64,000 bases of DNA from Sipunculus nudus (taxonomy: Eukaryota; Annelida; Sipuncula; Golfingiida; Sipunculidae). Below, in pieces: positions 5,218-56,330 of the stretch. The notes beneath the pieces were generated by a model. It did not search any database. It was not told where the DNA came from and worked only from the letters and a program-made list of their open reading frames with translations. A program made the translations under genes and the position numbers. The stretch is from the NCBI GenBank assembly GCA_026874595.1, contig CM049307.1:26696362-26760361 (forward strand). Direction: 5' to 3'. Position 1 is the first letter of the stretch. Every line of letters starts with the position of its first letter.

Positions 5218-5505
5218 ACGCTTTTTCAGGAGGCGCCTCGAGGATTTTCACTGGCCTGTTAAGACCGTGGCCAGGGTGCATGTCCTGCCCAAAAGGCATT
5301 TCTGTGCAATACGCGGTCACGCGGGTCCACTATAATCCCCATTGATCCCCAATATCCATTGTAACGCCCCTAGAGGAATTTCTCTCTCAAAAGGAAGTAA
5401 AGTTTTTTTTAATCCAAAGAACACATGACTGCGCTTTCAATGAGAGGGCTTTTCAGTTTGGTCAACACTGGGCACTAAGTCCAGTGATGTGACTACCGTT
5501 TGACA

Positions 5506-7238
5506 ATTTTTAGTTCAGCTGACTGTAAGTCATTTGAGCTATAGCAAACACCCTTTGTCCGTCGTCCGTCGTCCGTCCGGCCGTCCGTCCGTTAACAGGG
5601 CACAAATGGTAACCGATGGACCTAGAAACTTTTAACTGTACATCCAGGGAGGTCCTGGGCAAATCTCCTTGGAAACCTAAATTAGGTCATGGTGACCTAT
5701 AGTTTGTGACTTACGGGCCGAAAACATGATTTTGAGCACCCAGGCAGTCAGACGGGGCACAAATTGTATCTATTAGGCCTAGAAACCTCTAACCTTACAT
5801 TTTGGGATATCCCAGGTAAATGTCCTTGGAAACCTGAAACTAGGTCACTGTGACCTTTATTCTGCGACCTATACGAAAAAGATGTCCTATGAGCACCCTG
5901 AATGTAAGATGGGGACAAATCGTATCTGTGGAGCCTAGAATCTTCTAACACAATATCCTGGTAGTTTCTAGGCAGATCTCCTTGGAAACCTGAAATTAGG
6001 TCATAGTGACCTATATTTTGTGACCTATGGGCCAAAAACATGATTTTGAGCACCCATACAGTCAGATCGGGCACAAATAGTATCCATTAGGCCTAGAATC
6101 CTCCAACATGACATTTAGGGAGGTCCTAGGCAAATGTCATTGGAAACCTGAAATTAGGTCACTGTGACCTATATTCGGCGACCTATAGGAAAAAGATGTC
6201 GTATGAAAACCCTGAATGTCAGATGGTGACAAATCGTATCTGTAAGGCTTAGAATCTTCTTACACAATTTCCTGGGAGGTCCTAAGAAAATGTTCTTGGT
6301 CACGGGGACCTTCATTTTGTGACCTACGAGACAAAAACCTGATTTTGAGCACCCTGAATGTTAGATGGGCACAAATCATATCTGTTAGGCCTAGAATCTT
6401 CTAATGCAACATCCTGGGAGGTCCTAGGCAAACCTCCTTGGAAACCTGAAATAAGGTCAAGGTGACCTACATTTTGTGACCTACAGGCCGAAAACAGGAT
6501 TTTGAGCATCAAGACAGGGCACACATTGTATTTGTTAGGCCTAGAATTTTCTAATGTAACATTCTCAGACGTCCTGGGCAAATGTCTGTTGAAAACTGAA
6601 ATTAGGTCGCCATGACCTATATTTTGCAACCTATCAGAAAAGATGTCATATAAGCGCCAAGACAGTAAGACAGGGCACAAATTGTGTCCATAAGGCCTAG
6701 AATCTTTTAATATAAAATTCAGGGACGTCTTAGTCAAGTGGCCTTGGAAACCTGAAATTAGGTCATGGTGACCTATATTGTGTGACCTATGGGCTGAAAA
6801 AAATGGGCTATTTTTTGCAACCTATCAGAAAAGATGTCAAATAAGCACCCAGACAGACAGACAAAGCACAAATTGTATCCATTAGCCCTAGAATCTTCTA
6901 ACATGCCATTCAGGGAAATCCTTGGCAATTCTCCTTGGAAACCTGAAATTGGATCATGCTTACCTATATTCTGCCGGCTATGGACCAGAAACATGATTTT
7001 GAGCACCCAGACAGACAGGGTACAAATTGTATTCATTTTTCTTGGAACCCTCTATTGTGAAATGCAGGGGGTCCTGGGCAGATCTCCCATGAATCCTGAA
7101 TTTTTTATTTTCTTTCTATTTTTTCAACACTGTAACTTTAGCCAGAGGCTATTCTCACAGACAATATATAACATTAATAAAATATGAGCACCCAGTCTAA
7201 ATAAGCTGAGCGTCATGGCCCATGGGCCACTTGTTTTA
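5506..7238 (+). mobile_element. Non-autonomous tandem-core element, pearl / Helentron-associated (HINE)-like, ~156-bp units
   Basis: The left end is an imperfect hairpin (arms 5512-5524 and 5528-5540), then a CCGTC-rich microsatellite (about 5560-5592). About ten units of ~156 bases follow, spaced 156, 158, 156, 142, 150, 155 and ~190 by their GCCTAGAA landmark. The right end has a perfect palindrome TGGCCCATGGGCCA (7216-7229) and CACTTGTTTTA. There is no coding capacity. Bivalve pearl elements have ~160-bp tandem cores, and HINEs have end hairpins and tandem cores; assignment to that class is by architecture, not by database match. Boundaries are supported by comparison with the uninterrupted copy at 7990. 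Confidence 0.65.
5684..6774. promoter_or_regulatory. Array of AGGTCAnnnTGACCT palindromes (consensus estrogen-response element)
   Basis: Perfect inverted AGGTCA half-sites with 3-base spacers start at 5684, 5842, 5998, 6156, 6454 and 6760. A one-mismatch copy is at 6604, and decayed copies are at about 6297 and 6950. Several units add a third half-site: TGACCT, eight bases, then TGACCT (for example 6007-6026). The pattern is carried by the repeat unit of the mobile element. Binding by a nuclear receptor is inference. Confidence 0.7.
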
Positions 7239-9634
7239 AGGGTTACAGGTATGTTGATTTTTATACATTCAAAAATATCTTTCCAAGATAACCATGGTTT
7301 CAAAAGTTCGGCCAAGTCATGTGTTTTATAAAGTTTTTTTCAATAAGAAGCCCCACAACTTAATTATCATTCGGGTTGGGGTGGATGGGGGTTGTTCACA
7401 GATATTTGTTAAATTCCGTTGTCTGTAGGGATGGTGAAACATGAAAAAAATATCACAAGTACATATTTAAATTGATGACAGACTAGAATCTGTAGTCAGA
7501 GCGAACAGACCTCTATCAGAATCTCCTTTAATATCAGTCATGCATTCACGTGTATGCGTTTCATGTGTGAACACTGTCATGCTTCAGTAACACGAGATCG
7601 CCTTGCGAGTGGCAGAATAAATAAATACGAATGGGTGGCTTCCACACGGGGACAAAGGAATGGCCCTTGTCATAATGGTTTATAAGAAAATATATATTGT
7701 AGTGATTGTTATTACCCCCAAAATGAAATGGACTATTGGTATGTCTTTACCCTAACCCTCTACAAATGTTCAGCAAAACATTTTTCGCCTAGTTGTCACG
7801 CTTTTTCAGGAGGCGACCTGTAATCCCAACTGAACCCCATTTCCATTATATCACCCGTTAAGGAATTTTACTCTGTCAATAGGAAGTAAGGATTTAAAAT
7901 TCAAGCGCGGAACACATGTCCACATGAATCTTTTAATAGGGAGCATTTTTCCGTTGAGTGGACACAAAGAGCTGAGACCGATTACCGTTTTATAGGTTTA
8001 CAGGTTTGTTCATTTTTATACATTCAGAAGTATCTTTCCATGATAACCATGGTTTTAATCGTTCGGCCGATTTATGGGTTGTTTGAAAACAAGTTTTTTT
8101 TTTTCAAAAGGAAGCTCGGGGGGGGGGGGGGGGATTGCACACACTTCAAAGGGTCCTCAGTCTCTTAGGGACTTTGAAACCCCTGCCAGAAACTACTAAC
8201 CAGTCTTACGTACACATTTCATGTAAAACATTGTCATGGTTCAGCAACACGGATTCACCAGGCGAGAGGCAGAACAACTGCATACGAATTGGCGGCTTCT
8301 ACCGGTGGACAGAGGAATAGGATCTTGTAATTAATCCTTTGTGGAACTGTGATTATGTCACTTAAGAATAAAAATATATTATGGTGATTCCGATTACCTC
8401 AAAAAATGTAATGGATTACGGATGCAGTTTTACTCTACCCCTTTACAAATTTCAGCAAAATATGTATATAACATTTTGCGTTAATTTGCTGAAAGACAAT
8501 GAAACCAACCAAGGCTGAAGTGGTTTCTTTGCTAAATGCTTTCATCGAAATATATAAACCTGCTTTCTTTTAACATGTCGCCTGATCTTCAACTAACATC
8601 CCACCTTTGTTATTTTATCGGGAAAAAAAATTATTTTTTGTTTGATTTCTTGAATAGAATAAGTTTTCTTTCTATGTTGATATTTTCGGGGAGGGTGTTC
8701 AGGGAAAAATTCTAGCAGAAGTAATCCTTATATCATATAAGTGAAACACGACAGTACATGCAAAACCTTAGAATTAAATTATGCGTCGTTTGGTTCCTAT
8801 CAGCTCATTACAAAAATATGCACCACGGGAGCAGCTAGTAATTTTTTTTATTACGATTTATATGTCTATGTTCGTGGTGTCCATAAATTACATTTCCTTG
8901 TGCATGAAGATCGAGACTTTTTAAAAATGTTGACTTATACTCCGTCTGTATTTTTGTGGTCCTTCAATGTACGGTATTGGCTTTCCGACCAGGTCGCGGC
9001 ATCGTCCAAAGTAGCATTCAGTACTTCGAGTACCCCCTTGCCTTAGGCTGGGTGGCTGTACGATCTGCCATACACGCCTGTGAAGTGTTTTTTTCTTGTG
9101 CATCATCAAGGGGTGTGTCTGGTGTGATCATGTTGCTCAGGTTCAACGCAGTGCTATCTACGTTTAACTTTCAAGTTGCCATCAAAAAAAATAAAAGTAT
9201 GCTTTGTGCATAAAATCTCCTATTTATCGTTGTGTACACAAAACAGCTGAAATTCTCATTTTATTGGTTGATTGTCTATTTTATTAGTGATCTATCTAGA
9301 ATCTTTTTTTTTTTTTTTGCGTCCTCAGATCAAACCCTCTCAGACACGCCCACTTCCTGCGCCATTCGGGGTCGTTATATTGTTACCAATTAATCTTAAC
9401 AATTCGCCCCAGTGCAATCAGGCGAGCGCACCCCACCCCCTCTCCCGGTACGCGGAGTATTCGACTAAAGCAAGAACCACCTGCTAAATAAATTTTGTAA
9501 CTGACTAATGTACAAAAGAAAAATGTCTGTGATTAGTTTTGACAAACACAGCCATCCAGAGTGGAAAAGGATATTACAGAATAAATTCATTTTTTTAGAA
9601 TATATATGATTATAAGTCAGTATTTCAGTCCAGA

Positions 9635-24474: not shown

Positions 24475-24718
24475 GCGGGGGGGGGGGGGGGCCCGTCGCA
24501 TCCAGTTCTCCCCTTTCTCCCGGAATTCACTTGGTCTAATAATGATTAAATTTTATAAAACACAATCACGAAATTCCTGTCACTGGTATCCGCAGATTCC
24601 GATTTTATTTTAATATAACGCAATGCACATGCATTAATGAATGTATTGTTTTTTTAATTAATTTTATTTTTAATTTTATACAAATGATATTTCTATTTGG
24701 AATTAAAACATGTGAGGT

Positions 24719-24781
<63 letters not shown>

Positions 24782-25189
24782 CTGTAATTGTCTTTGCCAA
24801 ATATTTTAGCCCCCTTCCCTCCCTCAATCCTGGCTACGCCCCTGCCTTCGGTTGAACCTGCGTTTAAAATAATGCTGTGAGGAAGGTGGGCGTTGTGGCC
24901 GATCACTCTTGATTATCGCCAGGATCGCCAGGACGCAAATTACACTTTGTGGGGGGGGGGGGGCGTCGCATCCAGTTCTCCCCTTTCTCCCGGAATTCAC
25001 TTGGTCTAATAATGATTAAATTTTATAAAACACAATCACGAAATTCCTGTCACTGGTATCCGCAGATTCCGATTTTATTTTAATATAACGCAATGCACAT
25101 GCATTAATGAATGTATTGTTTTTTTTAATTAATTTTATTTTTAATTTTATACAAATGATATTTCTAATTGGAATTAAAACATGTGAGGT

Positions 25190-25278
<89 letters not shown>

Positions 25279-25437
25279 CTTTAATTGTCTTTGCCAAATA
25301 TTTTAGCCCCCTTCCCTCCCTCAATCCTGGCTACGCCCCTGCCTTCGGTTGAACCTGCGTTTAAAATAATGCTGTGAGGAAGGTGGGCGTTGTGGCCGAT
25401 CACTCTTGATTATCGCCAGGATCGCCAGGACGCAAAT
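24475..25437. repeat. Recent tandem duplication of a ~480-bp unit
   Basis: Copy 1 (24475-24937) and copy 2 (about 24948-25437) are nearly identical, from a G run with CGTCGCATCCAGTTCTC through GCCAGGACGCAAATTA. They differ by single bases and by the length of an internal (TA)n tract (24721-24764 and 25193-25266). Each contains GGCTACGCCCCTG, the inverted end motif of the GGGGCGTAG elements seen elsewhere in the window. Confidence 0.85.
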
Positions 25438-26730
25438 TAAACAGCTGTATGGAGGTTTAACTGTTCTCGTGCTGCGGTTGATGGGTGCATGTAAAACCCT
25501 ACATAAAAACTCCATTTGCCAGTTGTAATTTAGCGGGAAGTGCGCCCCAAAACTCTTCAACATCTCTGGGTCGGTCGTCGGAGCTATACCTACCCGATGT
25601 GATGGGAGGCATTATGTTTCCTCTGCACGAAATAGGACCGGGAGGTACGCATCAAGATTTATATGGGGTTCGATGGGGTTTATTACGCCCATTTTATCCC
25701 GAGAAATGTCAAACCCGGGCAGTTTGTCGCGGTATTTTATGCTTGTTTGGGATTCTTACACAGTTATAAACTAGAAATATTTCACTTATTTCTGCTCCCC
25801 AGGGGTCAAGCTTAATGTTTCAGTTTAAGAGGGATTCAGGAATAATTCGGAAAGTTTAATACTGTTTTTGTGACACATAACTTTAAATAGTGTTTTCCAG
25901 GTTAAAGACATCTGCATATCGTTGGTTTATAAATTTTAATTGGTGCGTAAGTGAATCCGGTTATTACCTGCTTATGTCCTTTGTTTTTTCGATCTAGTGC
26001 TCGACTCGTTGACTTTTGCGTAGCTTTATGTAAAACATAACACGAGCAGACATATACTGTAGAAATAGATGCTGGTTAAGAAAAAAACTTCTCCGGTCAG
26101 AAGTATTTATAAGTAAACAGAAAGAAAACTCGTAAGACCTGCCACCTTCTGTTCTTTATACGGGAATATGCCTGTTATACGCATCTCTCACCTGTTTTAA
26201 CAAAAGTCACGCAGGTAACAGTATTATTTGCAAACAGAAAAGGGAGAAAGAATATGTCAGCTCTGCTAACCTTGGGATAAAAATGTACCTGTTATATGCC
26301 ATGGCAACATGCAAAAATAAGGGCAGGTCTGAACCAGTGTAAACTCGTGACACACCGTTTTCGGTCATTATGCTCGCGATATCCCGAGGATTAGACTGTT
26401 TTTGTTTTTGTTTTTGCATAATCTGGATTGTTGAGAGACCAAAATATTTCCGTTATCGGCACTTCCCTCCAGGCACCTATTTTGATTGCTGCGTTTTATT
26501 CAGAGGTTTGCTTCTCGGAGTGCCGCATCCAACCTTTTCGCATCGCTCGCCGCTACGAGTGTTTTATATTCGGTGACATTTGCCCACAAGAGTCCAAGTG
26601 AAAGCCGGTCTCACGTAACGCTTTCAAAGTAAGACCCCTGTCGAGGTATAGGGTAATATAACCCGCCCTACAATGTCGCCACGGAAATCTTAACAGAACA
26701 AGCTTTTTATTGGCCACATTTCTAATATAA

Positions 26731-28217: not shown

Positions 28218-29010
28218 TGGAAATTGCATCATGGATGATAATGAACATGCAAAGAAATCGAAGAATTTTAATAAAATTTTCTTTGCATTCCAAAAACAAA
28301 AAGAAAATATGCAATTTGTATAGATATATCTATAGCGGAGTCACCCGGCATTTAACAGATATTTACGATATACCACATAGGATCAATTAATAAAGCATTG
28401 ACATCAGTGCAGTTATCTACGATTGGTTATTACGTTTTTTATCATATAATGGTACCTGTGGTTCTGAGGGAACTGTTTTAAAGAGCTGAATAATAGAAAA
28501 CTGTTTACGCCAGTCTGGTGAAGTCCAGTTTTCCCCTTAACTTTCAATTAAGTTTGCCTACATAAAAAAGTGGGCCCCCCTCCTCCCCCCTCCCCCTAAA
28601 AAATTCTACGGCACTGGTTATTCAAAACAACGTGCACTAAATCCCTTTAAATATCCACATATTGTATCCAGACAATCCTCATAAAAGTACTTAAATTGAA
28701 AGAAAGGTCAGGATTGTGGCAGGTAAAATTGTTTTGTAATTTTCCAACAAACAAGCAGTGGGTTTAAAAGTATGTCGCTGTCTGCACTTTTATAAAACAG
28801 GACTTCGTAGAAGTGAAGCAATTCCAATCTCCCTCGCCCTTAGTGACATTTAACTTGAAGGAGCGGGTTGTGTACCTTATCCAGTGAATATATTGACCCA
28901 GCGTGTAGAGGCCATCATTTCCGCTCAATCAAAATCAAACCTTAACTTTCCTATAAAGTTAATGATTCAGTAATAACACCCGGAAGACCATATATTTCTT
29001 AATTTTAAAC

Positions 29011-29405
29011 ACGGCCTCCCATCAACTGTAAGTATTGCGGGTGCGGGCCCGCATGTTAACCCGGGCTCCCAATAACTGTAAGTCGTGAGGGTGCGTGCCC
29101 GTATATTAACCCGGGATCCAATCAACTGTAAGTCGTGAGGGTGCGGGCCCGTATGTTAACCCGCCCTCCCATCAAATGTAAGTCGTGAGGGTGCGGGCCC
29201 GTATTTAACCCAGCCTCTAATCAACTGTAAGTCGTGAGGGCGCGGGCCCGTATTTTAACCCGGCCTCCCATCAACTGTAAGTCGTGGTGGTGTGGGCCCA
29301 TGTTTTAACCCGACCTCCCATCAACTGTAAGTCGTGAGGGTGCAGGCCCATATGTTAACTTGGTCTCCCATCAACTGTAAGTCGTGAGGGTGCGGGCCTG
29401 TATTT
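29011..29405. repeat. 50-bp minisatellite, ~8 units
   Basis: The ATCAACTG landmark recurs at 29021, 29071, 29121, 29171, 29220, 29270, 29320 and 29370, a period of 49-50 bases. Each unit has CTGTAAGT (the first reads on as ATTG, the rest as CGTG) and most have GGGCCC. Divergence between units is a few per cent. Confidence 0.9.
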
Positions 29406-31523: not shown

Positions 31524-33769
31524 GAATCTGATTTGTTTTTTTTTATCTCCATTACAAAATTTGTGTTCATCACGCATACGTGATCCGTTTATATTAGGTT
31601 CCGTAACATAAAATATTTGTGTGTGTGTGTTGTTTTCGAAGACTTGCACTTCAAAGCTGCGGCATATCTCTGTGAAGTGGATCTCTCTATTTATAAGTCA
31701 CCGACAAAACAAGCAAGGTGGGCATTTATCAGAGATCCAGTCTGGCGGAGAATGAGAGACTAATGGTCCTAAATATGATTCAGCGACTGCTACAGTATCA
31801 GCACTGGCGGAGTCACGGGTCTTCTGCTGCTACAGTCATTCCATAGACAGTAGAGCAGAATGCCAGACTAGCACAGGCTGTACTCAATCGACCACATGCG
31901 ATGGGATTTTGTTTCTTTTAAGAAATAAACCCGCAGGAATTTTCGGTCAGGCTATTTTATTCGTTTTATCGTATCAGCGTGCGTGTCAAACCAGTCATGA
32001 TATAAAATAACTATATTATTTAAAACCCCTTATTTCAAGAAATGTGTTATAGTTATTTTCCCTGTGTATTTGTTCTTTGCTTGCTTAACTGCATACTTAT
32101 TAAAGTTTTTAGCTTTTTTTCTAAAAAAAAAAAATACAGTAGCATGTAAGGCCAAAACAAAAGGTATGGTTCTCCGGCACTTTTTTTTCAAATATCAGTG
32201 CGGGCGGGGGATTTTTTTTTTTTACCTCTTTTTGTATGTTTCGATAAAATGTCATATAATCAGGGAAAAGGCAAGATAATAACAGATTTTTGATGCTAAA
32301 AAAGTAAAAGCAGTACAAAACAAAGAAAATCTTATCAAAATGTTTACTTCTTGAAAGATGAAAATCAAAATCAAAATGTTTGATGCCGGGGGTTAAAATT
32401 GACGCGGGCAGTTCCTGAGAACCATACCTTTTTTGGCCTTATATTTATTGTGCTTAACCTATTTTAAGTCAGAACAAACTAGAACCAGTGATACTTTGCT
32501 TGCAGGCCTTAAGAAAAGCTAGACTTGCATGGAGCAGTCAATACAGTTCTTCGTAGTGCTTGAGTATCTATTTCCGGTTCCGTCTACACTCATCTTTGGC
32601 TGCAAGGAACTGTCAAACCACCAAGTCCCGTTTTATTTCATGCTTCTGCAAACTGGAAATATGGCTGCCAAAGAAATGAGGTCTCCTCACGAATCGAAAT
32701 GAGCTAGCGTGCTCTTCCCATCAGGGCCTTGTTCGTGTTATCAGAACTTAATTTTACGCCACGGGCGTCATAGTAAAACGAACGCCGCCTACCCGGGATT
32801 GTCTGAGACCTAACGCATGCAGCCGAAAAGAATAATTTCAGACTTGGCGTGGCTGCCCGTGCACCAGAAGTCTAACCGTGTTTGTCTACAAATAGCATTA
32901 TTCTTTTCTGTTGTCCGTTCAGATCAACGGAACAGATTAAAGTTGCAGTTTTGCTGAATAGACATCAGTCCCCTGGGACATGTGGCCAACTGGGTTTTGG
33001 CGGCGTTGTCATGTGACTGATCTCAGACCGTGTGAGTGAGCGTTTGCCTCATACAGGGCGTCCGAGTGTCTCCCTGAGCGCAGGGAGTATTAAAAGCTGA
33101 TAACCTGTGACGTGGACAGGGACTGGAAGGTATGCATCAAGCGGTAACCGTGGCTCTATATCCACAGTTGTCTGGCTCACAGAGATCACAATCAAGCTAA
33201 CACTCGTGTCGCCAACAGATAAGCGCCTCGTAACTCTGTCTCTATCCCTGGATCTTCAAAGCTGGACCTGGACGCCGATTTGGCACGCACATTCTTCGCT
33301 CACGATTTTTTTTGTCTATGGAGCCTTAATACCAACCTATGTTGACGTGATTGTCATGTACAACCCTAGTGTCTCCCATACAGTCATGGCTGTATGAACC
33401 TCGTAAAAGTGTTGTTGTTTCAAGAATGCCCTCACCTAACAAAGGCTGGATCGTTAAATCGATATATCAATACAAATCGACATGTTACGATTCGTGATAT
33501 ATTTTTATTTCACAGGGGCGTAGCTGGGGGGGGGGGGGGGGCGCAGGAAACTTGTAGCTGAAAATAATGTTCAGAACATAGAAATATCAGTCAAGTTTCA
33601 TTACACTTTTATCTGCAACAATTTATACAGAAAATTAACCCAGAGACATTTCTGAATCTGTCATGATAAAACTAAGAACGTTGATATAAGGAACCTTGCA
33701 CTAGCAACTAATGACTAATAAATTTATTGTAATAACTGAATTTTCAGCCATTCTCAATTTTCATATATG
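31524..33769. other. No gene recognised; one MITE
   Basis: Contains the TIR element at 32147-32441 and an AGGGGCGTAGCTGG motif with a long G run at 33513-33541 (a possible fragment of the G-run MITE family). The 33107-33397 open frame has a non-ATG start and no motif. Confidence 0.5.
32147..32441. mobile_element. MITE with ~25-bp terminal inverted repeats
   Basis: The left end TAAGGCCAAAA then AAAGGTATGGTTCTC is matched in reverse complement at the right end (GAGAACCATACCTTTTTTGG...CCTTA). GCGGGC blocks lie just inside both arms. About 295 bases, without coding capacity. Confidence 0.75.
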
Positions 33770-35507
33770 CGTAAAAATCTGAAAAAAAATACAAGTAGTG
33801 CCACCAGTCTGCAAGAACTGATGAAACACTCCATGATCAATATATATCCCAAGAATCATGGCTATCAAGGCATTAGTTATTCAGATACTGGAGCCTTTGT
33901 TTGTTTCAATTTTTTTATTATTCTTTGGGGTATTTACGAGCCCTATAGCTCGGCGAATATGGGTAACAGGGACCTATTTACAGGTTTTCATGGAGATTTT
34001 TCATGGACCTCCCTGGATATTAAGTTTGAAGATTCCAGGTCCAGTGGTTACGATTTATGCCCTGTTAACAGATGACAGTTTCATTGCAGGTCTGAAAAAA
34101 AGAGAAAAAAAATTGTAAAAATTGAAAAAAATACAGGTGGCGCCACCAGTCTGCAGGAAGTGATGGAAAATCCCATGATCAATATTCATGCAAAGAATCA
34201 TGGTGATCAATGCAGTAGTTATTCATATACTTGAGCTTTTGTATCAAATTTCGCATTATTCTGGGGGGTACTTCGGAGCCCCATAGCTCAAAGGATATGG
34301 GCAACAGAGACCAAATTTCAGGTTTTTCAAGGAGATTGTTCAGGGACCTCCCTGGATATTAAGTTTGAAGAATCCAGGTCCAGTGGTTACGATTTGTGCC
34401 CTGTTAACATATGAAAGTATCATAGCAGGTCTGAAAAAAAAGAGAAAGAAAAATGCGTAAAAATCTGAAAAAAATACAAGTAGTGCCACCAGTCTGCAGG
34501 AACTAATGAAACACTCCATGATCAATATATATCCCAAGAATCATGGCTATCAAGGCATTGGTTATTCAGATACTGGAGCTTTTGTTTGTATCAATTTTTT
34601 TATTATTCTTGGGGGTATTTACGAGCCCTATAGCTCGGCGAATATGGGTAACAGAGACCTATTTTCATGTTTTCAAGTAGATTTTCCATGGACCTCCCTG
34701 AATATTAAGTTTGGAGATTCCAGGTCCAGTGGTTACGATTTGTGCCCTGTTAACAGATGACAGTTTCATTGCAGGTCTGAAAAAAAGAGAAAAAAATTGG
34801 AAAAATACAGATGGCGCCACCAGTCTGCAGGAAGTGATGGAAAATCCCATGATCAATATTCATGCAAAGAATCATGGTGATCAATGCAGTAGTTATTCAT
34901 ATACTTGAGCTTTTGTATCAAATTTTGCCATATTCCGGGGGGGGGGGTATTTCGGAGCCCCATAGCTCAAAGGATATGGGTAACAGAGACCTAATTTCAG
35001 GTTTTCAAGGAGATTGTTCAGGGACCTCCCTGGATATAAAGTTTGAAGAATCCAGGTCCAGTGGTTACGATTTGTGCCCTGTTAACATATGACAGTTTCA
35101 TTGCAGGTCTGAAAAAAAAAGAAAAAAAAAATCGTAAAAATTAAAAAAAATACAGGTGGCGCCACCAGTCTGCAGGAAGTGATGGAACATCCCATGATCA
35201 TTATTCATGCAAAGAATCATGGTGATCAATGCAGTAGTTATTCAGATATTTGAGCTTTTGTATCAAATTTTGCATTATTCTGGGGGGTACCTTGGTGCCC
35301 CATAGCTCAAAGAATATGGGTAACAGAGATCTTTTATCAGGTTTCCAAAGGGATTTTTCATGGACCTCCCTGGATGTCGAGTGAGAAGATTCCAGGTCCA
35401 GCAGTTACGATTTGTGCCCTGTTAACGGACGGCCGGACGGCCGGACAGACGACGGACAAAGGGTGATCGCTATAGCTCAGATGACTTTCAGTCAGCTGAG
35501 CTAAAAA
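33770..35507 (-). mobile_element. Second tandem-core element of the same family, inverted, ~342-bp units
   Basis: Read on the minus strand it opens with the same end as the element at 5506: a strong hairpin (arms 35474-35486 and 35490-35502, 12 of 13 paired), the CCCTTTGTCCGTCGTC motif and a CCGTC / CCGGC microsatellite. The core is five units marked by CCACCAGTCTGCA at about 33801, 34143, 34486, 34817 and 35162. Two unit types alternate (A-B-A-B-B), the A-A spacing being 686 bases. GTTAACAGGGCACAAAT and neighbouring blocks align with the 156-bp units of the other element. The far end is not recognisable and may be lost. Confidence 0.65.
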
Positions 35508-36264
35508 TGAACACAAAATTATGATCCAAATATATCGCCATGTCTTTACTTCAGTACGTACTATAAGCTCTGCTTTGCACCAGATGATTGTTTATGTATA
35601 CATAATGTCGACATGCGACACACTGTATCGCTTCTTTATATTAGGTAACAAGCATCTGGACAGACTGTCCTAAATAAAGAAAGAAAATTTAGTAGGTCTA
35701 TTCTGCCGGTTTAAAATGTCCATGTGTGATATTGAAACGGAGGGAGAATTAATTTTTAATTTCAGGCACCGTGGGTGATTCTCGATCATCTAAATGTACA
35801 TTTAGCAAAGTCATTATGATTTATGCACAAGCTTAAGATTACATCTTAATTATGGCTGGAAGAAATTACATGAATTTGAAATTATGGTTAGCTGTTTATT
35901 TGGATATAATGTAATGTACACTTATTTGTGTAATGAACAAAATCTTAATAATATTACGGAGTCAAGCAACCCTTCTATTCTCATAGAGAATAATCCATAT
36001 TGTCAATATGGAATGTGAGATTATCCAGTATGATGAATTATGCACCCGATCTAATTTACTTACCCGCAGATCAATTTTATTGCAATTTGTCACGAATGTA
36101 TGCAAATCGTATAGCACCTGGTAAATGACAAATCATTTATGTCACCCGCACCCTCGTTAAGTTCCTTCTGTTGTACTGAAGTAAATGATTCAAAAGGCAA
36201 AATAGGTAAAAGTTGTGTTATTAAATTATTTTTTAAGAATGGATAGAGAAATGACTGCCAATGG

Positions 36265-36640: not shown

Positions 36641-37040
36641 ACTACCTGTACATGAACTTTTTTTATCCGATTATTATACATATTTGGGACATGAACTTTT
36701 GTTAACCGGTATTATATACTTTTGGGATATGAACTTTTGTTATCCGATATAATACACTTTTGGGGCATGAACTTTTGTTATCCGGTATTACACTTTTGGG
36801 ACATGGACTTTTATTATCCGATATTATACACTTTCCGGACATGAACTTTTGTTATCGGATATAACACTTTGGGGACATGAGCTTTTGTTATCCGATATTA
36901 CACATTTGGGACATGAACTTTTGTTATACGATATAACATTTTTGGGACATGAATTTTTGTTATCCGATATTACACTTTCGAGACATGAACTTTTGCTATC
37001 CGGTATTATTAAAGAATAGGACCTGGACCTTTGTTATTAG
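36641..37040. repeat. 36-38-bp minisatellite, ~11 units
   Basis: GGGACATGAACTTTTGTTAT-type units recur with ATGAAC at 36691, 36729, 36767, 36803, 36841, 36877, 36913, 36949 and 36985. The period settles from 38 to 36 bases, with degraded units at both edges. Confidence 0.9.
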
Positions 37041-41933: not shown

Positions 41934-42135
41934 GTTCAAGCCGTGACGGAGTTAAGTCATTTACGACCAGGTCCCACCTTGGCCGGCCTGGGACCGGTGA
42001 TTACAAGCAAAACCACTGGTTGTCTTCTTATTTCAAGTTCAACAATAGGTCTTCTACCGCTACTGCGCCAGGAGCTGAAGCCACAGAATATCTTTGTAAT
42101 TGACTTTAATTCCGAATTCGCAAGTTCTGTTCACG
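41931..42135 (+). other. 5'UTR part of the receptor exon
   Basis: This 205-base leader lies between a strong splice acceptor and the receptor ATG. It contains no ATG at all, so the ATG at 42136 would be the first AUG of this exon, which supports the start chosen. It could instead be reached by transcription starting just upstream, in which case the mRNA would be unspliced here. Confidence 0.6.
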
Positions 42136-43425
42136 ATGGAACAAGACGTTACAACACCGCTTCCTTTCTTCGGAACAGCCTTGCCGGCAAATTCTACTCA
42201 GTTAACATGTGCTCAGTATATGAATATATCAAATGGAACTTACTCATGGCAGACTGGAGGTGGGCAATTGACACCAATGACGCTGATTTTCTGTTGTTTC
42301 TACACACTTATATGTGTGGTCGGAATGCTCGGTAATGGTCTGGTTATTTTTGTGGTGCTCCGCTACGCCAAAATGAAAACAGTGACAAACATGTACATTT
42401 TAAATCTGGCTATATCGGATATGTGTTTTCTGGTCGGTCTACCCTTCCTCACCACCACACTGGTGTACCGGAAGTGGTTATTCGGAACAGTGGTGTGCAA
42501 GCTGTTCTATATATGTACATCAATCAACTGGTTTACCAGTGTGTTCACGCTGACCGTGATGAGCGCTGACCGCTACTTTGCCGTGTGTCACCCTATCAAA
42601 TCCATGAACTACAGAACACCTCTGGTGTCACGGATCGTCTGCGTTAGTGTTTGGACTCTATCGTTCTTAGTCATGCTTCCCATAATCCTCTACACCAGAC
42701 TCGAGCACATTTCTACTCCATGTTCAGATAAAGTATCATGCACGTTCAACTGGCCAAAAGGACAAAGGATTTCGGGTGAGAAAGCCTTCATTGTGTATGC
42801 CGGGGTGCTGGCGTTTGCAGGGCCCGTAGCTCTTATCAGTGTGTTTTACCTTTTGGTTGTACTACGATTGCGTCACGTTGGACCAAAGAAAAAATCAGGC
42901 GACAAGAAGAGAGCGCACAAGAAGGTAACACACATGGTACTTGCGGTAATTACTGTATATATAGTATGTTGGCTCCCATACTGGTGTTTTCAGCTGGCTC
43001 TAATATTTGGTCCGTCAGACCCAAAAGCCTGGCAGGTGTCGCTGTTTCAAATCTTCACCTTGCTCAGTTACGCCAACAGCATGGCAAACCCGTTGCTGTA
43101 TGCATTCCTCAGTGACAACTTTCGCAGAAGCTTCATCAAAGCGTTCAAATGTGTGGCTAATGCAGAGGTTAATGGTGCTCTGCAGGTAGAGCACAGCATG
43201 TTTCCCGGCAGAAAATCCTCCCAGAAGAATGAGTTCCGGTTCCGGAAACAAGCCAGAGCGGAAGAGGAACATGAGACTATAACTTTGACCACCACCGCGA
43301 TAACCACCGAACATTCTAAGGACAGGAACGGAACCCAGCAAACCAACCTGGACGAGGCTAAAAATGTGATCGTGGCAGATAAAAGTAGTGTCTCAGAATG
43401 CACGTCACCGCCAACGCAAGTGTGA
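42136..43425 (+). CDS. Somatostatin / allatostatin-C-type G-protein-coupled receptor, complete single-exon CDS
   Basis: Encodes a 429-residue class A GPCR, predicted to sit in the plasma membrane and bind a neuropeptide. Seen in the sequence: N-terminal N-glycosylation sequons at N19, N30 and N33; TM1 GN (66-67); TM2 LNLAISD with D95; C121 at the top of TM3 pairing with C202 or C196 in ECL2; DRY at 145-147; TM4 W173; basic third loop (251-263); CWLP at 278-281; NPLLY at 318-322; helix 8 SDNFRRSF; C339 as a palmitoylation candidate; a Thr-rich tail cluster (381-391); C-terminal TQV. Known from the family: RYAKMKT.TN.YILNLAI.D, CT.NWP and YAFLSDNF are shared by vertebrate SSTRs and insect AstC receptors. 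TSIN.FTS in TM3 and SADRY.AVCHPI favour the AstC branch. The start is the first ATG in the exon (A at -3, G at +4); in-frame codons upstream begin only with TTG. Length is normal and no frameshift is seen. The exact ligand is not decidable here. Confidence 0.96.
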   Translation: MEQDVTTPLPFFGTALPANSTQLTCAQYMNISNGTYSWQTGGGQLTPMTLIFCCFYTLICVVGMLGNGLVIFVVLRYAKMKTVTNMYILNLAISDMCFLVGLPFLTTTLVYRKWLFGTVVCKLFYICTSINWFTSVFTLTVMSADRYFAVCHPIKSMNYRTPLVSRIVCVSVWTLSFLVMLPIILYTRLEHISTPCSDKVSCTFNWPKGQRISGEKAFIVYAGVLAFAGPVALISVFYLLVVLRLRHVGPKKKSGDKKRAHKKVTHMVLAVITVYIVCWLPYWCFQLALIFGPSDPKAWQVSLFQIFTLLSYANSMANPLLYAFLSDNFRRSFIKAFKCVANAEVNGALQVEHSMFPGRKSSQKNEFRFRKQARAEEEHETITLTTTAITTEHSKDRNGTQQTNLDEAKNVIVADKSSVSECTSPPTQV

Positions 43426-46589: not shown

Positions 46590-47762
46590 ACACTAGTACC
46601 AGAAACGACACTGTAACACCAGACATTGTGACAATAGTCTAGTGCCAAGAATGACACTGTAACACCAGGCATTGTGACAATAGTCTAGTGCCAAGCATGA
46701 CACACACTGCAACACCAGACATTGTGACATTAATCAAGTACCAAGAACAACACTTTAACAATAGACAATGTGACCTGTATATAGAACCAAAATCAACACT
46801 TTGACACCAGACATTGTGACATTAGCCAGGAAGCAAGAACGACAGTGTAATGCCAGACATTGTGAGATTAATATAACACATAAACAACTGTAACACCAGA
46901 CATTGTGACATCAATCTAAGACAAAGAACACACTTTAACACCAGACACTGTGACATCAGCCTGGTAGCAAGAACAACAGTATAACACCAGACATTGTGAG
47001 ATTAATATAATACATAGAACAACACTGTAATACCAGACATTGTGACATCAATCTAATACCAAGAACGACACTGTAACACCAGACATTGTGACATCAACCT
47101 AATACAAAGAACGACACTGTAACACCAGACATTATGATATCAATATTTTACTTAGAACGACACTGTAACACCAGACATTGTGACATCAACCTAATACAAA
47201 GAACGACACTGTAACACCAGACATTATGATATCAACATATTACTTAGAACGACACTGTAACACCAGACATTGTGACATCAATCTAAGACAAAGGGCGAGA
47301 CTTTAACATCAGACATATTTCTAGGACCAGGAAAGACACTGTAACACTAAACATTTATGACATCAATCTGAGACCAAGAACGACACTTTAAAACCAGACA
47401 TTTTAACATTAATCAAAGACCAAGAGAGACACTATAACAGTAACACCAGACATTGCGAGATCAACCTAGGACCAAGAACGACACTTTAACACCAGACATT
47501 GTACCATTAATCAAAGACCAAGAAAGATAATACAACACCAGACATTGTGAGATCAACCTAGGACCAAGAAAGATACTGTAACACCAGCCATTTAGAGATC
47601 GACCTAAAACCTAGAAAGACACTTTAACACCAGACACTGTGACATTAATCTCAAACTAAGAACAACATGTACTGCAGTTTTACACCAGACATTGTGACAT
47701 CAAGCTAGGACCAAGAACGACACTGTAACTCCATACATTGTGACATCAGTCTAGCACCAAAT
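46590..47762. repeat. 46-bp minisatellite, ~25 units
   Basis: Units around ACACTGTAACACCAGACATT, then GTGACATCAATCTA. TGTG landmarks at 47041, 47087 and 47133 give a 46-base period. Units vary in length and sequence, with poorer copies at the left edge (from about 46470). Confidence 0.9.
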
Positions 47763-54269: not shown

Positions 54270-56330
54270 TCCCTTGAAGCAAGGATCGAGTTATCAGTCC
54301 GAATATGTTAACAGGAAGATGGATCGTCAAGTTATTAGTCTGAATAGGTTAATAGTAAGATGGATCGTAAAGATATCAGTTCGAATAGGTAGACAGGAAG
54401 ATGGATCGTCAAGTTATTAATCCGAATTGGTTAATAGGAAGATGGATCGTCATGTTATCAGTTAGAATAGGATACCAGGGAGATGGATAGTCAGGTTATC
54501 AGTCCGAATAGGTTAACAGGAATATGGACCATCACGTTGTCAGATAGAATAGAATAACAGGAAGATGGATCGTCAAATTATCCGTCCGAATAGGTTAATA
54601 AGAAGATGGATCGTCAATTGATCAGTCCGAATAGGTTAACTGGAAGATAGATCGTCAAGTTATCAGTCCGAATAGGATAACAGGAAGATGGATAGATGGA
54701 TAGTCAAATTATCCGTCCGAATGGGTTAACAGGAAGATGGATCGTCAAATTATCAATCCGAGTAGGTTAACAGGAAGTTGGATCGTCAAGTTATCAGTCC
54801 GAATAGGATAATAGGAAGATGGATCGTCAAATTATCCGTCCGAATAGGTTAATAAGAAGATGGATCGTCAATTGATCAGTCCGAATAGGTTAACTGGAAG
54901 ATAGATCGTCAAGTTATCAGTCCGAATAGGATAACAGGAAGATGGATAGATGGATAGTCAAATTATCCGTCCGAATGGGTTAACAGGAAGATGGATCGTC
55001 AAATTATCAATCCAAATAGGTCAATAGGAAGATGGATCGACAAGTTAGCAGTCCGAATAGGATAACAGGAAGATTGACCGTCAAGTTATCAGTCCGAATA
55101 GGTTAATAGGAAGATGGATCGAGCGCCCAGTTATTAGTCCGAATAGGTCGATAGGAAGATGGATCGTCACATTATCAGTCCGATGGGATAACAGAAAGAT
55201 GGATCGTCAAGTTATCAGTTCGAATAGGTTACCAGGAAGATGGATCGTCAAGTTATCAATCCGAGTAGGTTAATAGGAAGATGGATCGTCAAGTTATCAG
55301 TCCGAATATGATAAAAGAAGATGGATCGCCGAGTTATAAGTCCGAATAAGTTAATAGGAAGAAGGATCATCACATTATCAGTCCGAATAGGTTAACAGGA
55401 AGATGGATCGTCAAGTTATCAGTCCGAATAGGATCATAGGAAGATGGATCGTCAAGTTATCAGTCCGAATAGGATAATAGGAAGATGGATCGTCAAATTA
55501 TCCGTCCGAATAGGTTAATAAGAAGATGGATCGTCAATTGATCAGTCCGAATAGGTTAACTGGAAGATAGATCGTCAAGTTATCAGTCCGAATAGGATAA
55601 CAGGAAGATGGATAGATGGATAGTCAAATTATCCGTCCGAATGGGTTAACAGGAAGATGGATCGTCAAATTATCAATCCAAATAGGTCAATAGGAAGATG
55701 GATCGACAAGTTAGCAGTCCGATTAGGATAACAGGAAGATTGACCGTCAAGTTATCAGTCCGAATAGGTTAATAGGAAGATGGATCGAGCGCCCAGTTAT
55801 TAGTCCGAATAGGTCGATAGGAAGATGGATCGTCACATTATCAGTCGGATGGGATAACAGAAAGATGGATCGTCAAGTTATCAGTTCGAATAGGTTACCA
55901 GGAAGATGGATCGTCAAGTTATCAATCCGAGTAGGTTAAAAGGAAGATAGATCGTCAAGTTATCAGTCCAAATATGATAATAAGAAGATGGATCGCCGAG
56001 TTATAAGTCCGAATAAGTTAATAGGAAGAAGGATCATCACATTATCAGTCCGAATAGGTTAACAGGAAGATGGATCGTCAAGTTATCAGTCCGAATAGGA
56101 TCATAGGAAGATGGATCGTCAAGTTATCAGTCCGAATAGGATAATAGGAAGACTGATCGTCAAGTTATCGGTCCGAATAGTTTAATAGGAAGATGGATCG
56201 TCAAGTTTCCAGTCTAAATAAGTTAATAGGAAGATGGATCGTCAAGTTATCAGTCCGAATAGGATAACAATAAGATGGATCGTAATGTTATAGGTCTGAA
56301 TATATATAACGAAGATGGATCGTCAAACTT
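54270..56330. repeat. 41-bp minisatellite (~50 units) with higher-order duplications
   Basis: Core: GGAAGATGGATCGTCAAG, then TTATCAGTCCGAATAGG. GTCCG at 55381, 55422 and 55463 fixes the 41-base period. Within it a ~253-bp block is duplicated (54601 and 54854). A ~666-bp block is duplicated as 54854-55520 and 55521-56187, tagged by the rare insert GAGCGCCCAG at 55121 and 55787. Confidence 0.95.

Follow-up and report, generated by a model that had tools for sequence, protein, structure and literature searches.

A putative HINE-type Helentron carrying an array of receptor-like palindromes in Sipunculus nudus

We analysed a stretch of 64,000 nucleotides from Sipunculus nudus (contig CM049307.1 of assembly GCA_026874595.1), hereafter the window, which contains a mobile element of about 1.73 kb that we call E1, an empty counterpart of its insertion site, and a sister element, E2. 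The ends of E1 are fixed only to within several bases because they lie inside T-runs. The features identified are the following:

5502 to 7233, forward strand: E1, a putative non-autonomous Helentron (HINE/Pearl type), delimited by comparison of filled and empty sites and by sequence
5513 to 5520, forward strand: 5' subterminal repeat of E1, GTTCAGCT, from sequence
5535 to 5541, forward strand: short inverted repeat to the 5' subterminal repeat of E1 (TGAGCTA, 6/7 complementary to TAGTTCA)
5557 to 5592, forward strand: (GTCC)n microsatellite of E1, from tandem-repeat analysis
5591 to 7103, forward strand: tandem core of E1, nine satellite-like units of ~156 bp and a partial tenth, from repeat analysis
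7204 to 7211, forward strand: 3' subterminal repeat of E1, AGCTGAGC, 7/8 complementary to the 5' repeat
7216 to 7229, forward strand: perfect 14-bp 3' palindrome of E1, TGGCCCATGGGCCA, followed by CTTG and the target T-run
7766 to 8143, forward strand: diverged paralogous empty site, matching the left (5280-5510) and right (7233-7400) flanks of E1
33766 to 35508, reverse strand: sister element E2 (left end at 35508, other end at about 33766), found with blastn of E1 against the window

The left end of E1 reads TGAGCTATAGC...CACCCTTTGTCCGTCGTC. The partial tenth unit of the core, at about 7008-7103, refines the unit count of the earlier note on this DNA. TRF reports a period of 314 bp in the core, where two unit types alternate, and the identity between units averages 72.8% over the compared columns.

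A host sequence of ~380 bp is present twice, side by side and diverged, and E1 occupies one of the two copies. The empty copy reads CCGTTTTATAGG, and the filled one reads CCGTTT, the element, then TTTTAAGGG. The target of E1 is thus a run of Ts, with no target duplication beyond these Ts, as judged from one insertion with a diverged paralogue as reference.

The left ends of E1 and E2 are 84% identical over 173 aligned columns (5506-5678 against 35508-35339), after which the matches to the core are repeated. The tandem units of E2 are spaced by 332-346 bp, and each includes a block, roughly 115-130 bp long, with homology to the E1 unit. This block starts with GTTAACAGGGCA, directly after the same microsatellite. 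The common left end and segment, together with the different unit length, suggest that the two arrays were built separately. The 5' subterminal repeat of E2, GCTCAGCT, is the exact reverse complement of the 3' repeat of E1, and the inverted repeat near its 5' end is an exact 8-bp pair, TAGCTCAG/CTGAGCTA. We looked for a 3' end of E2 and recognised none, so that the mobility of E2 in its own right is only putative.

Several other features were found in the window. A single long reading frame on the forward strand (42100-43425, 441 amino acids from stop to stop) encodes an animal-type G protein-coupled receptor of the rhodopsin family, with somatostatin receptor type 2 as the closest among PDB sequences. 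Tandem repeats with units of 41 bp (54289-56326, about 49 copies), 46 bp (46593-47760, about 25 copies, with sub-periods), 50 bp (29008-29403, about 8 copies) and 36 bp (36650-37006, about 10 copies) are scattered along the sequence, and a unit of 497 bp starting with a G-run occurs in two tandem copies (24481-25439, 93% matches).

The earlier note had described E1 as a mobile element with a tandem core. This was right, and the architecture of E1 allows us to refine it to a Helentron of the HINE/Pearl type. The HINE plan has been described for oyster (PMC7492417) and for mite and fly (PMC4067079). As in that plan, E1 has an inverted repeat beside the 5' subterminal repeat and then a microsatellite (6/7 in E1, exact over 8 bp in E2), a short 3' palindrome 4 bases before the T-run, and the central satellite-like tandem repeats that HINEs often have. 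It sits in a T-rich (TT) target and lacks a target-site duplication, again for one insertion read against a diverged paralogue. The candidate subterminal inverted repeats of E1 have arms of only 8 bp, 7/8 complementary and about 11 and 22 bases from the ends; the 5' repeat of E2 and the 3' repeat of E1 are complementary at 8/8 positions. Published repeats are longer (mite, 12-15 bp; fly, 13 bp), and in mite their distance is 2-4 nt to the 5' end and 38-60 bp to the 3' end (PMC4067079). The 3' palindrome of mite HINEs lies 8-35 bp from the end (PMC4067079), whereas that of E1 is nearer the end.

The closest parallels are in bivalves. Cg_HINE of Crassostrea gigas (PMC7492417), like E1 with its candidate subterminal repeats, has a left module with a subterminal repeat, an inverted repeat and a microsatellite, a satellite-like core, with units mostly of 140-180 bp, and a right module made of a subterminal repeat and a palindrome; it also uses T-rich targets without target-site duplication. 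In some Cg_HINE, related left modules are joined to different cores (PMC7492417), as in E1 and E2. Unlike in Cg_HINE, the 156-bp unit of E1 holds a palindrome of the oestrogen response element (ERE) type, and the likeness described here is one of plan. The bivalve Pearl elements (CvA and others) and DTC84 resemble E1 in having core repeats of ~160 bp in short arrays, and a conserved palindrome is reported near the repeat junction of DTC84, which we liken to E1 by description (PMC7492417, PMC5139131). The repeats of CvA are related to the BIV160 family (PMC7492417, PMC5139131). Taking two BIV160 primers (PMC5139131) as a proxy for the monomer motifs, we found no match with up to three mismatches in the window, and their matches in the element cores were no better than in shuffles. 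Pattern scans of collections of viral and genome contigs, and blastn against phages and plasmids, yielded no hits; these collections are described as free of animal genomes, and the result has no bearing on copy number.

The palindromes lie one per unit in the nine complete units of E1:

5684 to 5698, forward strand: unit 1, AGGTCA-TGG-TGACCT, exact
5842 to 5856, forward strand: unit 2, AGGTCA-CTG-TGACCT, exact
5998 to 6012, forward strand: unit 3, AGGTCA-TAG-TGACCT, exact
6156 to 6170, forward strand: unit 4, AGGTCA-CTG-TGACCT, exact
6297 to 6311, forward strand: unit 5, two mismatches, with a deletion immediately 5' of the site
6454 to 6468, forward strand: unit 6, AGGTCA-AGG-TGACCT, exact
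6604 to 6618, forward strand: unit 7, one mismatch
6760 to 6774, forward strand: unit 8, AGGTCA-TGG-TGACCT, exact
6951 to 6965, forward strand: unit 9, three mismatches, with a TTACC common to this unit and four of the five sister units

Our pattern scan agrees with the earlier note on the six exact matches to AGGTCAnnnTGACCT (at 5684, 5842, 5998, 6156, 6454 and 6760) and on the single mismatch at 6604; the two units it had called decayed turn out to have two (6297) and three (6951) mismatches. The additional TGACCT that it had noticed eight bases on in several units is exact in four of the nine (6021, 6320, 6477 and 6783). Base frequencies predict 0.0027 exact sites in 64 kb, and the motif is therefore not chance background. 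The six sites are tandem copies, and hence represent one origin rather than six independent events. With up to two mismatches allowed, the window contains 10 matches (8 in the array) against 2.24 expected; none of 100 shuffles reached 10 (the largest count was 7). Irrespective of sequence, 48 inverted repeats with two 6-base arms around a 3-base spacer occur in the window, the six included.

The spacers of the six exact sites (TGG, CTG, TAG, CTG, AGG, TGG) do differ, as the earlier note had claimed, but they partly follow the alternation of the two unit types. Both CTG spacers belong to one type (units 2 and 4), the other type comprises units 1, 3 and 6 (TGG, TAG and AGG), and unit 8 (TGG) combines parts of both. 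The spacers are thus not six independent draws.

E2 gives a different picture. Exact matches to AGGTCAnnnTGACCT occur in 6/9 units of E1 and in 0/5 units of E2, where the corresponding sites have 3-5 mismatches each: AGATCT-CTG-TTACCC, AGGTCT-CTG-TTACCC (twice), TGGTCT-CTG-TTGCCC and AGGTCC-CTG-TTACCC. The half-sites AGGTCA or TGACCT are found 17 times in E1, 49 times in the whole window, and never in E2. The suggestion that the element could spread ready-made ERE arrays finds no support in this sister copy, the one other copy at hand, which has the homologous core block with neither palindromes nor half-sites. The TTACC of unit 9 and of four of the five E2 units would fit an ancestral unit that was not palindromic. 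We dropped the view that the palindrome is clearly derived and TTACC ancestral, since the unit tree sets E2 beside the palindrome-bearing unit 1 of E1 (support of 0.806 for the grouping). The palindrome may have been gained in E1 or lost in E2, and the tree fits both.

We then analysed the conservation of the palindrome relative to its surroundings, with column statistics restricted to columns that have letters in at least 12 of the 14 units of E1 and E2. These tests were devised after the pattern had been noticed and concern a single array and two elements. Between the E1 and E2 consensus sequences, 33/133 aligned columns differ, as do 3/12 half-site columns, and at 88/119 mask positions the number of differences is equal to or below that of the half-sites. 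The earlier note had counted half-sites mutating at the background rate, together with a lack of receptor binding, as speaking against a function, and this is the rate found for this one pair of elements. Conservation of the half-sites beyond their surroundings across copies was thus not observed in the E1/E2 pair, where none of the five E2 units is intact.

Within E1, the half-sites changed from the consensus at 5/107 positions, the preceding 20 bases at 9/156 (Fisher p=0.79), the 20 bases that follow at 34/180, and the sequence upstream of the conserved block at 129/675 (p=8e-5 against the half-sites, with the relatedness of the units ignored). The spacer is unusually variable (11/27 changes). 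In mean identity over all nine units, 8/119 mask positions are at least as high as the half-sites, a count that includes the palindrome's own position. The half-sites rank first of 119 when units 5 and 9 are omitted and eighth when they are included; our verdict uses the nine. With E2 added, 25/119 mask positions do as well or better. Six intact units of nine is the highest count among the 119 mask positions in E1, and among all 14 units six intact are reached at 2/119, again including the palindrome. In E1, half-sites and spacer contrast more strongly than at any other of the 119 mask positions, whereas in E2 the contrast is reversed, with an invariant spacer and 105/119 positions that score as high.

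By parsimony, the 12 half-site columns of E1 require 5 steps (11/119 masks have as few or fewer), the preceding 20 bases 0.47 steps per column, and the three spacer columns 8 steps (4/119 masks have as many). Three columns drawn at random from the 34-column block reached 8 steps in 9/20,000 draws. For E1 and E2 together, the half-sites take 12 steps (18/119 as few or fewer) and the spacer 10 (41/20,000 draws). E1 has a conserved block of ~35 bp that contains a hypervariable triplet, and a CCTTGGAAACCTGAAATT block adjoins the half-sites in its unit. The free spacer between held half-sites is a hint of constraint in the E1 array alone. A conserved block with a variable triplet would suit either a protein site or the loop of a hairpin.

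These observations can be read in several ways. The palindrome could be a real ER-like homodimer site, selected in one HINE subfamily and either serving the element, through transcription or open chromatin in the germ line, or co-opted by the host. The held half-sites and free spacer of E1 agree with such a site. In gel shift, the estrogen receptor of the snail Marisa cornuarietis binds GGTCAnnnTGACC in the absence of ligand, and its ERR apparently does not (PMC3778743). This makes binding of the E1 palindrome plausible, with the reservation that the receptor is that of a mollusc and the element that of Sipunculus nudus. There is also a precedent in Drosophila miranda, where DINE-1-like elements supplied sites for the MSL complex (PMC4067079, PMC4384637). 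Yet, E2 has 0/5 sites and no exact half-site, and the neighbouring 20 bases, devoid of AGGTCA and TGACCT, are as conserved in E1 as the half-sites. We consider this reading unlikely. The same low probability applies to its extended form, in which one HINE subfamily would spread selected clusters of perfect ER-type palindromes (at least six sites, with a free 3-base spacer) as constitutively bound ER hubs, E2 being the ancestral or the lost state.

Another possibility is that the palindrome folds into a DNA hairpin, with a stem of 7 bp and a loop of 3 bases, and thereby promotes either tandem amplification or rolling-circle replication, the loop being free to vary. The variable part is indeed the loop, and the hairpin formed as single-stranded DNA in the three intact E1 units that we folded, of six (z of -2.67, -3.02 and -1.66). 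It was absent from the two folded stretches of E2, which has five units and also a tandem array. We sought compensatory changes between the arms in the decayed E1 units and found none; the paired arm positions drop to 4, 5 and 3 of 6. This makes a hairpin role somewhat less probable still than a receptor site. Finally, the array could be too young for its bases to differ, as may happen for a tandem array within a single element. We rejected this very improbable reading because the mean identity of the units is no more than 72.8%, and the conservation is patchy with a peak in the ~35-bp block.

With good confidence, we favour the reading of E1 as a non-autonomous HINE of the Pearl/Cg_HINE kind, in which the palindrome was multiplied with the array and its likeness to a receptor site is most likely incidental, although binding by a mollusc ER in vitro is quite conceivable. 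The element was probably moved by rolling-circle transposition with the enzymes of an autonomous partner, and it inserted into a T-run. Its core would have grown as the segment that directly follows the microsatellite was duplicated in tandem, and the ERE-type palindrome, inside the conserved block of ~35 bp, would have been amplified along with the array as a passenger. Since all five E2 units lack the palindrome, tandem amplification can proceed without it, as mobility probably can. With a nearby sister copy that lacks them, the palindromes probably reflect a peculiarity of a single array, not a conserved function.

Mobile elements that carry binding motifs are known from other systems. ISX of D. 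miranda, a DINE-1-like element, is like E1 of the Helitron/Helentron type (PMC4067079) and bears protein-binding motifs, but for ISX/DINE-1-like elements binding and function are reported (PMC4067079, PMC4384637), whereas E1 is known from its motif. In mammals, L2/MIR and ERV1 spread ERalpha motifs (PMC7145552). They share with E1 the presence of ER-type motifs in mobile elements, but belong to a different class and come with binding data. The authors of PMC3778743 point to a lack of knowledge of EREs in mollusc genomes. Our search of open-licence PubMed Central articles found no description of ERE-type palindromes in HINE-like elements, and six sequence strings from E1, E2 and one spacer variant matched 10 papers, none of them on molluscs or mobile elements, judging by titles and the openings of abstracts. 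One paper on Lucina haemoglobin, which names transposable elements and ESR1, was set aside as irrelevant.

The element itself is ordinary, and a rewiring of receptor control is possible but unsupported. If the sites were bound, they would make E1 a rolling-circle element that seeds dense arrays of nuclear-receptor sites, for a receptor reported to be ligand-independent in a snail. The window also offers a HINE next to a diverged version of its empty site, together with a sister whose core units differ in length. Taken as a pair, E1 and E2 speak for the idea that tandem cores of this kind can arise from sequence of the element itself, next to the microsatellite.
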